From Stigmatella ashevillena (GTDB lineage Bacteria > Myxococcota > Myxococcia > Myxococcales > Myxococcaceae): 64,000 bases of DNA. This document shows positions 56,515 to 61,339 of this stretch, in pieces. The notes under the pieces are model-generated. The model was not told the DNA's origin, did no database searches, and worked only from the letters and a program-made list of their open reading frames with translations. The position numbers and the translations under genes are program-made. Every line of letters starts with the position of its first letter. Positions within the stretch are counted from its first letter, which is position 1. Location: assembly GCF_028368975.1 (NCBI RefSeq), contig NZ_JAQNDM010000002.1, forward strand, positions 2,738,007 through 2,802,006, written 5' to 3'.

Positions 56515-58278
56515 ATGCTCCCAAGGGTTCCCTTCCTCCTGGCTGTCGCGCTGTGCCTCACCGCCTGTCCCAAAGCGCCTCCCGCCTCTCCGCAGACTCC
56601 CCCCACCGAGACGCAGCACCTGGCCACCAGCGTGAAGGAGTTGGCCGCCCAAGCCCGGGCGCTGCTGGAGACCCAGGACCGGCTCGTCTGGGAGCACTGG
56701 ACGGAAGGCAAGCCGGTGGACATCGCCGCGACCTACCGGGGCAAGGAAGGGCTCTTCACCGTCGAGAACATCCGGAAGATCGACCGGCTGCGCCAGCTCA
56801 CCCAGGACGCACGCGAGCTGCGCGCGCTCACCGCCCTGCAATCCCACTTCGCCGGCGAGTACCTCTCGCAGGCCCTGGCCGAGAACAACGAGGCCATCGC
56901 CAACCTGGAGGCCTCGCTCACCTTCACCGCGGGGGGCCGGGAGGTGCGCTACCGCGAGTTGGAGCGGCTTCTGGCCAACGAGAAGAGCGCGGTGAAGCGG
57001 CGCGCGCTCGCCGAGGGCGCCCTCCCCGCCCTGGAGCGGCTCAGCCAGTCCCTGCGCCGCCGCGAGGAGCGCACCGCGGAGCTGGTCAAGACGCTTGGCT
57101 ACTCCTCCTATGAGGCCTTTGGGGGGGAGCTGCGCCAGGCGGACCTGGCCCAGCTGAGCATCCTGGCGGAGGAGATCCTCCAGGCCACCCAGGAGCCCTA
57201 CAAGACGGTGATGGAGCGGCTGTCCCAGCGCGAGCTGGCCCTGCCGTTCTCCAGCCTCACCCGCGCCGACATCCCCCGGCTGTTCCGCGCCCGGGAAGTG
57301 GAGGACGCCTTCCCGAAGGAGGAGCAGCTCCTGCGGGTCCACACCTCACTCCAGGGGCTGGGCATCGATTTGAGCGCGATGCCCAACATCTACATCGATG
57401 CCCGGGAGCTGGCGCGAAAGAACGCCCGCTCGCTCACGCTCCCCATTGAAGTGCCGGCGGATGTGCGGCTGTCGCTGAAGCCGGGCTCTGGCGTCCTTCA
57501 GCAGGCGCGGCTGATGCACGAGGTGGGGCACGCGCTGCACTACGGTTTCACCCGCGAGCCCCGCTTCGAGCTGGCCAAGCTGGGCAACCCCGCCGTGGGC
57601 GAGGCCTATGCGGCGCTCTTCGAGGATCTGCTGGAGGATCCCGTCTGGCTGGAGGAGCACGCGGGCGTCCGGGGAGAGGCACGCGCCCAGTACCTGGCGG
57701 CCTCCAGCGCGCACAAGCTGTTCCTCATCCGCCGCGCGGCCGGGCGGCTGCTCTATCAACTCGAACTCCATCGCCGGACGGACATCGAGCCCCGCGAGCT
57801 GTACCGCGCCATCATGGAGCGCACGGACGCCATTCCCATGAGGCCCGAAGACGAGGCGCGCTACCTGGTGGACCAGGAGGACTTCTTCCAGTCCGCGGAC
57901 AGCTTCCGGGCGTGGTTCCTGGCCGGCCAGCTCCAGGGACAGCTCAAGGGCCGCTTCGGGCCCGCGTGGTGGCGCAGCACCGAGGCCGGTGAGTTCCTCA
58001 AGGCCCTCTGGGCCCACGGCAACGCGCTGTCCGTGCGCGAGGTGTCTCAGAGCCTCGGCGAGAAAGGCCTCTCGCCCGACGTGCTCCTCCTGCGCCTGGG
58101 AACCACCCTCCAAGTACCCATCACCCTGGACGTGAACCCCGCCACGCAGGCTCCTTCACCCACGGAAGCCCCTGCGCCCACGGAGGCTCCTGCGCCCACG
58201 GAGGCTCCTGCGCCCACGGGGGCACCGGCCCCCGCGCCTCCCCCGGAGACCAGCCCCTCGGCCGCCCCGGGGCCCTGA
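56515..58278 (+). CDS. Zinc metallopeptidase lipoprotein (gluzincin, M2/M3-like)
   Basis: A 587-aa exported protein. Signal peptide with a lipobox (ALCLTACPK, about residue 18). The peptidase body (about 35-540) is helical and contains HEVGHALHYG with His335 and His339 as zinc ligands and Glu336 as base. The third ligand is probably Glu in VGEAYAALFEDLLED, about 25 residues on. This is the arrangement of M2/M3 peptidases (ACE and thimet oligopeptidase families). The C-terminus is a Pro/Ala/Thr-rich tail of EAPAPT repeats. Likely degrades peptides at the cell envelope. ATG 56515 lies 30 bp from epmA. Confidence 0.86.
   Translation: MLPRVPFLLAVALCLTACPKAPPASPQTPPTETQHLATSVKELAAQARALLETQDRLVWEHWTEGKPVDIAATYRGKEGLFTVENIRKIDRLRQLTQDARELRALTALQSHFAGEYLSQALAENNEAIANLEASLTFTAGGREVRYRELERLLANEKSAVKRRALAEGALPALERLSQSLRRREERTAELVKTLGYSSYEAFGGELRQADLAQLSILAEEILQATQEPYKTVMERLSQRELALPFSSLTRADIPRLFRAREVEDAFPKEEQLLRVHTSLQGLGIDLSAMPNIYIDARELARKNARSLTLPIEVPADVRLSLKPGSGVLQQARLMHEVGHALHYGFTREPRFELAKLGNPAVGEAYAALFEDLLEDPVWLEEHAGVRGEARAQYLAASSAHKLFLIRRAAGRLLYQLELHRRTDIEPRELYRAIMERTDAIPMRPEDEARYLVDQEDFFQSADSFRAWFLAGQLQGQLKGRFGPAWWRSTEAGEFLKALWAHGNALSVREVSQSLGEKGLSPDVLLLRLGTTLQVPITLDVNPATQAPSPTEAPAPTEAPAPTEAPAPTGAPAPAPPPETSPSAAPGP
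58165..58218 (+). repeat. Three 18-bp coding repeats (EAPAPT tail)
   Basis: Three copies of GAGGCTCCTGCGCCCACG (first with two changes) encode E-A-P-A-P-T at the end of the peptidase gene. A flexible tail of this kind at the C-terminus of a lipoprotein may span the outer-membrane surface layer. Confidence 0.88.
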
Positions 58279-58290
58279 GGTCGCCTGCCC

Positions 58291-58857
58291 TCACGGCGCT
58301 TTCAGCGTGCGGAAGGTGATGGAGTACCGCTCCTGTTTCACAGCAGGAATGCTGTGCTGCCACGTGCTCCGGGATTCGCCTCCCAGGACGTAGGCCGAGC
58401 GAGGGGCGAGCTCCAGCGCATACGTGCGCCGCGCCTCGCCCTGGTCACGTTGGAAGCGCATCCGGCATGCGCCGCCCAGAGAGACCCCCACCACCTGCTG
58501 GCCGAACATGGGCGCGTCCCGGTGCCAGCCAATGGCCGCCCCGGGCGGGTATTCGTTCAGCAAGGCCTCGACGAGTTGCTCGGGCGGCTCGCCCATCAGC
58601 ACCGCGCACCGGCTCCTCAGTGGCAAGAGGAAGTCTGGCAGGGCGGGCCCAGGTTCCACCTGCCAGCTCTCGTAGCCGTAGAGCCAGCCAAAGTGCGCCG
58701 AGCGCCGCCTGGCCACCTGCCCCCGCATCCGGATCTCCGAGAAAGACACGCCTCGCAGGTGCGCCAAGAGCTGCGCCTCCTCGGCCGCCGTGAGAAAATC
58801 CGGGACATAGAGGAGCCCCTCTGGCCGCTCCTCTTCCTGTCCCGTCATGACAGCCAT
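58291..58857 (-). CDS. AlkB-like 2-oxoglutarate/Fe(II) dioxygenase
   Basis: AlkB enzymes reverse alkylation damage on DNA or RNA by oxidation with 2-oxoglutarate and iron. The 188-aa protein (ATG 58857; a TTG at 58884 would add nine residues) has the iron site His/Asp in GWHRDAPMFG and His in WQHSIPAV, and the 2-oxoglutarate-binding Arg in RYSITFR. NEYPPGAAIGWH is typical of the family. Length matches the short AlkB-like group (ALKBH2/3-like). No signal peptide. It converges on the peptidase gene with 12 bp between stops. Confidence 0.88.
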   Translation of the reverse strand: MAVMTGQEEERPEGLLYVPDFLTAAEEAQLLAHLRGVSFSEIRMRGQVARRRSAHFGWLYGYESWQVEPGPALPDFLLPLRSRCAVLMGEPPEQLVEALLNEYPPGAAIGWHRDAPMFGQQVVGVSLGGACRMRFQRDQGEARRTYALELAPRSAYVLGGESRSTWQHSIPAVKQERYSITFRTLKAP

Positions 58858-58936
58858 CCCTGGGAAACGCTCCTGAGCACTCAAGCCCTGGAAGCATAGG
58901 GATGGGCCCTGCCCATCGCACCCACGAAGGGGCTCG

Positions 58937-60148
58937 TCAGTAATTCGTGTAGAGCAGCCGATTGAACGAGCCTGCGGGCAACCCCGTCAACACCCCTTGC
59001 GTGGCGTTGTTGATGATGGCCGAGTTCACGATGGGGGCAGAGGCTGCGGGGTTGCCCTGAAGGTAGAGCGCCACCACGCCCGTCACGAAGGCGCTGGAGA
59101 CGCCGCCTCCGCTGAGCGTCTGGTACGCGGTATCGCTGGTGTACCAGGCCGCCGTCGCCGTGCCGGGCGCGTAGAGATCCACGCAGGAGCCGTAGTTCGA
59201 GAAGGACGCCACGCTGTCGGAGACGGTGCTCGAGCCCACGGTGATGGCCTGGGCCACGCGGGCCGGCGAGTAGTTGCACGCGTTCGCGTTGTTGCTGCCC
59301 GCCGGGACGACCACTGGAACACCTGAATTGATGAGGTTCACCACCGCATTGTCCAGCGCAGTGGACACGGCACCACCGAAGGGAAGGTGGGCCACTGCCG
59401 GACTGATGTGGTTGGCCGTGACCCAATTCAGCCCCGAGATGATCCGGGAGGTGGTCGAGGCGCCCTGGCAATCGAGGACCCGGACCGACCAGAGCTTGAC
59501 CCCCTTGGCCACGCCATGTTGCGCGCCGCCCACAATCCCCGCTGAGTGTGTCCCCACTCCCACGCAGTCGCTGGCATCTCCCCCGGGGGTGACCGCGTCG
59601 TAGCCTGTCACGACCTGGTTGGGTTGAAACTCGACGTGCGTCTTGCGGATGCCGGTGGCCACGATGTACGCGTTCACGCCCGCCCCCGTCAGGGAGTAGG
59701 TGAAAGTGCCATTCAACGGAAGGGTGTGCTGATCAATCCGGTCCAGCCCTGCGCTCGACGTCGGTTGGACCGTCTGGAGCGTGAAGCCCTCCTGCTCTTC
59801 CTGGAAGAGCCCATCCTCCTCGACGAACGCCACGCTGGGATGACGCGCCAGGGACTTCGCGGCGGCTTCGGACATACGGACGGCGAAGCCCCGCGCCGCG
59901 CTCGTGTACACCTCGAAAACCTCACCGCCATACCGGTGCGCGAGGTCCTTCGACAGGGCTTCCACCTCGCCCGTCCCCGCCTTGAGCATCACGATGTATT
60001 GCCCAGGAACGGCCCGATCGGACCTCAGGAAGTTCTCCACGGTGCCCACCGCGGAGGGGGCAACGTCCTCTCCGGCCGACATGTCCTGGCCGCAGGCCAC
60101 CAGCGATAACAGCGACAGGCTCATCAACCGCTTCTTCGAGATCCACAT
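58937..60148 (-). CDS. Secreted subtilisin-family protein lacking catalytic residues (pseudo-peptidase)
   Basis: A 403-aa protein with lipoprotein-type signal (LSLVACG), an I9-type prodomain (about 47-115, PGQYIVMLKAGTGE, PSVAFVEEDGL) and a complete S8 proteinase-K-like domain (about 130-400). Every catalytic position differs from the family rule: the Asp in the (V/I)DTGI motif is Ala164 (YIVATGIRKTH), the His of the GHGTH motif is Val198 (GVGTHSAG), the oxyanion Asn of AGN is Ser285 (PAGSNNANAC), and the Ser of GTSMA is Gly349 (LSGGGVSSAF). The fold residues around them remain. It may act as a binding protein or inhibitor-like partner. Otherwise no frameshift. Confidence 0.85.
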   Translation of the reverse strand: MWISKKRLMSLSLLSLVACGQDMSAGEDVAPSAVGTVENFLRSDRAVPGQYIVMLKAGTGEVEALSKDLAHRYGGEVFEVYTSAARGFAVRMSEAAAKSLARHPSVAFVEEDGLFQEEQEGFTLQTVQPTSSAGLDRIDQHTLPLNGTFTYSLTGAGVNAYIVATGIRKTHVEFQPNQVVTGYDAVTPGGDASDCVGVGTHSAGIVGGAQHGVAKGVKLWSVRVLDCQGASTTSRIISGLNWVTANHISPAVAHLPFGGAVSTALDNAVVNLINSGVPVVVPAGSNNANACNYSPARVAQAITVGSSTVSDSVASFSNYGSCVDLYAPGTATAAWYTSDTAYQTLSGGGVSSAFVTGVVALYLQGNPAASAPIVNSAIINNATQGVLTGLPAGSFNRLLYTNY

Positions 60149-60225
60149 GGGGCGACTCCCGGAGGCAAAGGGGGATTCGCCCATCTTGAGGGGGAGCCGT
60201 AAAAACCGACAAGATTGAAAATGCA

Positions 60226-60257
60226 GAGGCCCCCACCGTTTTCACGATGGAGGCCTC
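60226..60257. terminator. Hairpin between SPFH gene and pseudo-subtilase gene
   Basis: GAGGCC (60226-60231) and GGCCTC (60252-60257) form a stem extended by CCACCG/CGATGG with one mismatch, around TTTTCA. On the minus strand it lies about 27 bp after the SPFH stop and is followed by a short T run (CATTTTC), consistent with termination of the SPFH transcript. Confidence 0.6.
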
Positions 60258-60283: not shown

Positions 60284-61339
60284 TTACAGGAGCTTCATCA
60301 GCTCCGCGCGCTTGGTGCTGTACTCGTCGTCGGAGAGGACGCCTGCCTTGTGCAGCTCGTGCAGTTCCTTCAGACGCTGCGCCGGGGTACGGGAATCCCC
60401 GCCGCCTGCGGCCTCGGGCGCCGGGCCCTGAGGCGCCTGGCGAGCCTGCTGCTGGTTGTTCGCGAACATCTGAGCCATGCCCATGCCCATGCCGAGGCCC
60501 ATGCCCTGGAGCGCGCCATCCGAGCCGCTGCCGTGGCCGCCGCCCTTCGCCATGCCCTCGGAGGCCCCCAGCATCGCCTGCCCCTGGGCGTAGTTCTGGA
60601 AACCGCCCGCCATGCGCGAGTAGGCCGCGTCCTTGGAGAACTTCTTGAGCGTGGCCTCGTCCTCTTCCTTGATGCTCACGTGGAAGTTGCCCATGCGCAC
60701 CACGGTGAGCCCGTAGCTGTCCACATGCGGCTTGAGACCGGCGATGACCTCGGTTTCGATCTCCTCGGTGTACGCGCCGCTCGTCACGTCCAGCAGCGGC
60801 CAGCGCTTCTTCACCAGCAGCTCGGCGATGCGGTCGCGCGTCACCTTGAGCACCTGGCTCTTGAACCACCCCACGAAGTCGTCGTTGCTGGAGCGGCCCA
60901 TGCCCACCAGGCCCACCACCAGCCGCTCCGGCTCGGTCACCCGGATGGAGAAGTCGCCGTACACCATCGTGCCGATGCCCAGGCCCGTCTCCGGATCGCG
61001 CACATCGCCAATGGGCCCGCCGAACTTCAGCCCGGTGTGCTCGCGCGTGGAGATGAAGAAGATCTCCGAGATGAAGAGGTCTCCCCCGGTGAACTTCTCC
61101 AGGAGCCGGGACAAGAACGGAATGTTCTTCGTGTCCAGCTGGTGCCGACCCGGCCCCAGCTTGCCCTCGACCTTGCCGTCCTTGACGAAGAGGGCGACCT
61201 CATCCGCGTCAACGGTGAGCTGCGTCAGCATCCGGACGTTCTTCTCCGGATACTTGAAGATGATCTCTCCCTTGGCCTCGTCCGCGCGGGCAATGAAATT
61301 GCGCTTCGTCTCGCCTTTGATCGTGTCGAAAAGACCCAT
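60284..61339 (-). CDS. SPFH-domain protein with C-terminal SHOCT-like segment
   Basis: A 351-aa cytoplasmic protein of the SPFH/Band-7 (YdjI/virion-core-like) group. The body (about 1-240) has GLFDTIKGETKRNFIARAD, VDADEVALFVKDGKVEGKLG and GPGRHQLDTKNIPFL. After a Gly/Met-rich linker (about 245-300) a short helical SHOCT-like end appears: AQRLKELHELHKAGVLSDDEYSTKRAELMKLL in part. SPFH proteins often form membrane-associated rings or scaffolds. No membrane helix is seen. AGGCGAAGCGAG precedes the ATG. Confidence 0.85.
   Translation of the reverse strand: MGLFDTIKGETKRNFIARADEAKGEIIFKYPEKNVRMLTQLTVDADEVALFVKDGKVEGKLGPGRHQLDTKNIPFLSRLLEKFTGGDLFISEIFFISTREHTGLKFGGPIGDVRDPETGLGIGTMVYGDFSIRVTEPERLVVGLVGMGRSSNDDFVGWFKSQVLKVTRDRIAELLVKKRWPLLDVTSGAYTEEIETEVIAGLKPHVDSYGLTVVRMGNFHVSIKEEDEATLKKFSKDAAYSRMAGGFQNYAQGQAMLGASEGMAKGGGHGSGSDGALQGMGLGMGMGMAQMFANNQQQARQAPQGPAPEAAGGGDSRTPAQRLKELHELHKAGVLSDDEYSTKRAELMKLL

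Follow-up and report, generated by a model that had tools for sequence, protein, structure and literature searches.

A predicted subtilisin-fold lipoprotein of Stigmatella ashevillena has lost its catalytic residues and remains under purifying selection

What can a subtilisin-like protein do once every residue of its catalytic machinery has been replaced? The question is raised by a gene in the window, the whole stretch of 64,000 nucleotides of Stigmatella ashevillena DNA analysed here. The gene lies on the minus strand at 58937..60148 and encodes 403 amino acids; its coordinates and frame are confirmed, and its start is the ATG at 60148, which is kept in an orthologue of 84% identity, whereas the alternative at 60184 is not. 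The protein consists of several parts: a predicted signal sequence (residues 1-19, 60092..60148, minus strand) ending in the lipobox LVAC with Cys19, an I9 prodomain (residues 46-116, 59801..60013, minus strand) supported by PF05922, the AlphaFold2 model and omega, and an S8 domain (residues 130-403, 58940..59761, minus strand) matched by PF00082 and by the structure 4dzt. Both Pfam matches exceed their cut-offs (Peptidase_S8, 78.4 bits; Inhibitor_I9, 29.1 bits), and among proteins of solved structure aqualysin I is closest in sequence (4dzt, E 3.7e-93), matches that bear out the S8A-type alignment of motifs made in an earlier sequence-only reading. By descent, as judged from these alignments, the protein belongs to the aqualysin/proteinase K group, with an S8 domain preceded by an I9 prodomain. 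Its S8 domain contains cysteines 195, 227, 291 and 322, which are kept in all eight pseudo-subtilases described below and which presumably form the two disulphides of the aqualysin-type group. By the lipobox criterion it is a likely bacterial lipoprotein with predicted lipidation at Cys19, as the earlier reading had proposed; the lipobox Cys occurs in 8/8 pseudo members, and a lipobox-like motif in 62 rows of a 77-row alignment.

At the former active site, Ala164 (59657..59659) takes the place of the catalytic Asp, Val198 (59555..59557) of the catalytic His, Ser285 (59294..59296) of the oxyanion-hole Asn and Gly349 (59102..59104) of the catalytic Ser, all on the minus strand, so that none of the four residues that mark a peptidase of the S8A group is present. 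The four replacements hold in a 96-row alignment comprising the window protein and 95 relatives that reach at least 130 bits in BLAST. The catalytic columns read D-H-N-S in 91 of these rows, D-H-D-S in one and are degenerate in four (the window protein, L031, L032 and L037). The D-H-D-S row, L047 (G058:C34:101576-102763), has an intact triad with Asp at the oxyanion Asn position. In the window genome, 29 PF00082 matches fall in 27 open frames, the pseudo-subtilase included, and D-H-N-S is found in 13/13 of the other S8 paralogues whose columns were read.

The replacements are accompanied by others elsewhere in the protein. A 77-row set was derived from the 96 rows by adding four new rows of a second clade, termed clade B, and leaving out 23: 14 distant or long-branched rows, the D-H-D-S row among them, and nine from genome G004 that are near copies of rows from genome G001. 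Column 198 is Val in 8/8 pseudo members and His in 69/69 actives, a count limited to the 77-row set because of the 23 rows left out. Column 164 reads A/A/S/S/S/S/S/S in the pseudo members, and M255L, R313V and P353A, like the His-to-Val change, occur in all eight. Eight residues that are rare among actives have become fixed in the pseudo-subtilases: A64, R102, V198, L255, V313, V350, A353 and P391. Among 76 positions at least 95% conserved in the 69 actives, 49 are unchanged in all eight pseudo members and 27 are changed; the latter include 164, 198, 254, 256, 257, 285, 348-351, 353 and 354, and thus catalytic, oxyanion, substrate-strand and Ser-loop sites.

A search of 96 genomes of the family at E <1e-115 yields three proteins of the window clade: the window protein itself and its orthologues in G005 (84% identity) and G001 (78%). 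The clade is confined to one genus, where it occurs in three of seven genomes. Its catalytic columns read A-V-S-G in the window protein, A-V-S-S in G005 and S-V-N-T in G001; Asp and His are gone from all three, while Ser survives in G005 and Asn in G001. The expectation that orthologues would carry the same four replacements is therefore not borne out. Orthologues with intact catalytic residues, which would have pointed to decay, were likewise sought: no intact close relative appears among the 96 family genomes at E 1e-115 with the window query or at E 1e-145 with a clade B query. In G004 and G002, which have no pseudo-subtilase gene, the matched portions of the SPFH and AlkB-like genes that flank it elsewhere are separated by ~93 and ~99 bases, with no such gene in the gap. 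Loss of the gene in G004 would be the simplest reading, favoured because the active paralogues pair G004 with G001. The gene tree of the pseudo-subtilases pairs the window copy with G001 (99/84) and not with G005, and the active paralogues show the other order.

The flanking genes are the same throughout the window clade. Directly upstream lies the gene of an SPFH (Band_7_1) protein with a C-terminal SHOCT domain (60284-61339, minus strand), and downstream that of an AlkB-like 2OG-Fe(II) oxygenase (58291-58884, minus strand), present in 5/7 genomes of the genus. The SPFH protein is 95-96% identical in three other genomes of the genus. Further on, a gene on the plus strand (56515-58278) encodes a probable lipoprotein of 587 residues with an HEVGH motif, which we take to be metallopeptidase-like; this protein has no Pfam, NCBIfam or PDB sequence match, and over a stretch of 406 residues it shows 97% identity in G005. 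A conserved operon or partner was considered and set aside: the clade B loci compared have other neighbours than the window clade, and no neighbour is common to both. A terminator-like hairpin follows the upstream SPFH gene (60226..60257, minus strand); with one site found and 0.9 expected in shuffles, the count gives no evidence for it. The same hairpin is visible in the intergenic sequences of G001, G002, G004 and G005, and since it is present with and without the pseudo-subtilase gene, that gene may have its own promoter. A scan for sigma-70-type promoters upstream of the pseudo-subtilase found 0 promoter-like sites.

The loss is not restricted to the window clade. In the 96-row alignment, a paralogue from G020 also lacks Asp and His. 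The DNA pattern GAYTGYNNNGGNDNNGGNWSNCAY, representing the His motif without its His and blind to members with other changes around this residue, was run on 195 genomes of the phylum and found 37 places. Four were already known (window, G005, G001 and G020); 18 of the other 33 were examined, giving four new pseudo members and 14 places with no query match at E 1e-3. A narrower His-less pattern run on the 96 genomes retrieved the window clade only, missing G020. The four new members, in G074, G077, G079 and G112, belong to two more genera and form clade B together with the G020 protein. Their columns read S-V-I-G, that of G020 S-V-S-S, and all five share a one-residue deletion in the Ser loop. 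In the G077 and G112 proteins, Pfam places a C-terminal PPC domain after I9 and S8. A motif-free search of the 96 family genomes with the G077 protein finds no proteins besides the five of clade B at E <1e-145. Pseudo-subtilases thus occur in 8/96 family genomes and 4/26 genera, with per-genus occupancies of 3/7, 1/1, 3/16 and 1/27. L169 (G112:C12:279623-281149), the sole clade B member found in the genus of 27 genomes, is 92% identical to a clade B member of another genus, and horizontal transfer is possible. Among relatives on viral contigs, 56 of 63 loci were read; 51 are distinct and free of stops, and the His motif retains its His in 50, the exception being L251, which has no match to the motif.

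Across two clades and four genera, then, Asp and His are lost in 8/8 members. As far as the aligned columns tell, their loss is the rule, and the loss of all four residues is not. The earlier view that complete loss is rare is tempered by the four clade B proteins that have likewise lost all four: the window protein is not unique.

Whether the two clades share one origin depends on the data set. In the 77-row tree, the window clade has support 100/100 and clade B 100/99; with the catalytic columns dropped from the 77 rows, the eight pseudo members form a single clade (support 59/96) found in 62% of bootstrap trees. Under a stricter mask with 34 rows, the two clades stand apart in the best tree and come together in 13% of bootstrap trees. 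In the 34-row test, a single clade is not rejected (p-AU 0.314), nor is a grouping of clade B with the active G020 protein L137 (p-AU 0.105); three of four alternative topologies are rejected at p-AU 4e-5 or less. The same loss, of Asp to a small residue and of His to Val, may have happened twice.

Selection was measured with a codon model written for this analysis and fitted to three-species stars. For the window clade, omega is 0.155 over 386 codons, with 0.172 for the leader and prodomain (108 codons) and 0.154 for the mature part (278 codons), so the frame and prodomain, described as intact from the outset, are both under purifying selection. Three clade B genes give 0.109, and the range is 0.068-0.120 for eight groups of active paralogues drawn from the three genomes that supplied the window clade. 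An omega of 1 fits far worse in all ten groups (2dlnL 197.7 for the window clade, 90.6 for clade B). The G005 branch reaches 0.273 in a free-ratio fit. Since the window-clade value exceeds those of all eight active groups, constraint is weaker than in the active paralogues. Simple decay or sequencing error is ruled out by open frames in three genomes, shared losses and an omega far below 1. With a predicted fold retained, catalytic residues lost in the orthologues and purifying selection acting on the gene, the protein is classed as a probable pseudoprotease of the subtilase fold.

The retention of the fold is predicted by AlphaFold2, which gives a confident pro-subtilisin fold with 58 sequences (mean pLDDT 88.1, pTM 0.86) and a mean pLDDT of 40.8 with eight sequences only. 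Confidence falls to pLDDT <50 in the leader (residues 1-36) and in a linker (residues 119-130). The mature part of the model matches aqualysin I (4dzt) with Z 48.8 over 271 residues at 1.0 Å, and at full length the model has matches in pro-subtilisin E that has not undergone autoprocessing (3whi; Z 43.3 over 333 residues) and in PCSK9 (5vlp; Z 42.9 over 326 residues). CspA and CspC are absent among the best 50 matches listed by either structure search. The predicted fold is not independent proof, because the model was built from active relatives, which would favour their own fold in any case. The claim of a non-enzymatic role is partly supported, by purifying selection, the predicted fold and the loss of Asp and His in all orthologues; the part of it that envisaged binding of peptides, prodomains or inhibitors in the cleft fares less well, as discussed below.

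The pseudo-subtilase is probably an uncleaved, lipid-anchored and non-catalytic protein that acts in binding or regulation through surfaces other than its old cleft. Subtilases release their prodomain by cutting themselves. The pseudo-subtilase would be exported and, given its lipobox, lipidated at Cys19. With Asp, His, Ser and the oxyanion Asn all replaced, established subtilase chemistry implies that it would cut neither itself nor substrates; in the absence of self-cleavage, the I9 prodomain would stay covalently attached, thereby leaving the whole single chain anchored at the envelope. In those active paralogues in which a lipobox-like motif precedes the prodomain, self-cleavage would instead release the protease and leave the prodomain at the membrane. 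Partners would be bound through the scaffold and prodomain surfaces rather than the old substrate cleft.

In the open-access papers searched, no literature on this myxobacterial pseudo-subtilase group was found. To our knowledge, few pseudo-subtilases have a proven role: CspA and CspC do so in spores, and mammals have a functional analogue in PCSK9, although its triad is retained. CspC of Clostridioides difficile is described as having a subtilase fold with an N-terminal prodomain, retaining Asp105 and carrying Thr170 and Gly485 in place of His and Ser (PMC6636752, PMC12880746). Its prodomain is reported not to be autoprocessed (PMC6636752), and CspC:CspA is presented as a case in which catalytically dead subtilases signal (PMC12880746). 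Csp proteases of clostridia are classed among the pyrolysins (PMC9549277), and CspA and CspC, which act in spores, are described with a jelly-roll insertion of ~130 aa. The window protein resembles CspC and CspA in its subtilase fold, prodomain and replaced catalytic residues, the role being non-catalytic in CspC and CspA; it differs in being aqualysin-like, in carrying a lipobox, in having lost the Asp as well and in having no jelly-roll insertion, which is excluded because residues 129-403 align over 271 positions with the 276-residue aqualysin.

In mammalian subtilases, the prodomain is described as released by self-cleavage. In PCSK9 it stays with the subtilase domain, and lowering of the LDL receptor needs no catalysis (PMC13276728). 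PCSK9 itself has the triad, cuts itself and carries a C-terminal domain (PMC13276728). The predicted fold of the window protein matches it (Z 42.9), but the triad is replaced and no C-terminal domain follows the S8 domain, whose last residue, 403, is also that of the chain. Proteases of the aqualysin I/ProteinT type of S8A are alike in sequence and predicted fold to the window protein with its I9 prodomain; aqualysin has Asp, His, Asn and Ser, all four of which are replaced here. By analogy, the window protein at most works like CspC or PCSK9 and is a member of neither group.

The protein might serve an active subtilase paralogue as an inactive subunit or assist its folding, much as CspA and CspC do with CspB; this would be a special case of the uncleaved, anchored binding protein, and a possible though doubtful one. 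It has the precedent described for C. difficile (PMC6636752, PMC12880746). Moreover, an active group (G000 L019, G005 L088 and G001 L097) accompanies the pseudo gene in all three genus genomes that carry it and is not among the matches listed from the four that do not, a post hoc observation on small numbers. This group is not adjacent to the pseudo gene, its members are long-branched and perhaps not orthologues, and G020, the sole clade B genome in the active-paralogue tree, has no member of it.

A protein that still holds peptides, paralogue prodomains or protease inhibitors in the substrate cleft, serving as a decoy or sponge, is unlikely. The predicted fold is kept, and the many S8 paralogues in the genome could need buffering, but the cleft itself has changed. 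In place of the NMSLGG found in the substrate strand of an active paralogue stand HLPFGG, HLPLGG, QLAIEG, LLGLSG or LLNLNT; the oxyanion and Ser loops differ among orthologues, with the Ser loop of clade B one residue shorter; and the cleft is presumably occupied by the tail of the prodomain, which would remain uncleaved. With cleft boundaries picked by the analyst, 23/51 cleft positions vary among the three window-clade orthologues, against 65/223 elsewhere in the mature domain (Fisher p 0.03) and 17/84 in the prodomain. In 6/8 active groups, the cleft is instead less variable than the rest of the mature domain, being slightly more variable in the L020 and L023 groups; the prodomain, the least variable part in the window clade, surpasses the non-cleft mature domain in variability in 7/8 active groups. 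Clade B lacks the cleft signal (4/50 against 20/222). Variation among the three orthologues of the window clade is highest in the old cleft, a signal that is suggestive only, because 18/273 circular shifts reach it (20/273 without the four catalytic columns). This variability argues modestly against cleft-based roles, including the earlier suggestion that peptides, prodomains or canonical inhibitors are bound there.

It is about as improbable that the gene is a relic on its way out, a relaxed paralogue that is still readable and has no function. Its presence is patchy, in 3/7 genus genomes and 8/96 family genomes, with a clean absence from G004, the sister of G001, and the gene is therefore dispensable. 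An omega above that of all eight active groups and a variable cleft would also suit a relic. Against this stand the omega of 0.155, which holds for prodomain and mature domain alike, the open frames in three lineages, the loss of Asp and His common to three genomes, and the same kind of loss in clade B at an omega of 0.109. That the protein is an enzyme, hydrolytic or otherwise, working through a rebuilt active site is very improbable: the cleft residues of the window clade are replaced rather than deleted, and V198, L255 and A353 are fixed in 8/8, but Arg102 is the only polar residue among those newly fixed and lies in the prodomain, and polar residues left near the old site, such as Thr165 and His201, also occur in active paralogues.

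Beyond the uncleaved, anchored binding protein favoured here, a broader reading is held tentatively and with considerable doubt: the myxobacteria may possess a family of envelope-tethered pseudo-subtilases, derived from an active protease with a lipobox and frozen as uncleaved pro-forms, that regulate or sense through prodomain and scaffold, for example by controlling the subtilases that the cell itself secretes. As a conserved myxobacterial group in a genome with 27 S8 frames, these proteins would offer a tractable system for a dead protease beside living ones, and they would show how a self-releasing protease turns into a tethered binding protein. If this is true and the loss happened twice, the path from released protease to membrane receptor would be a repeatable route.
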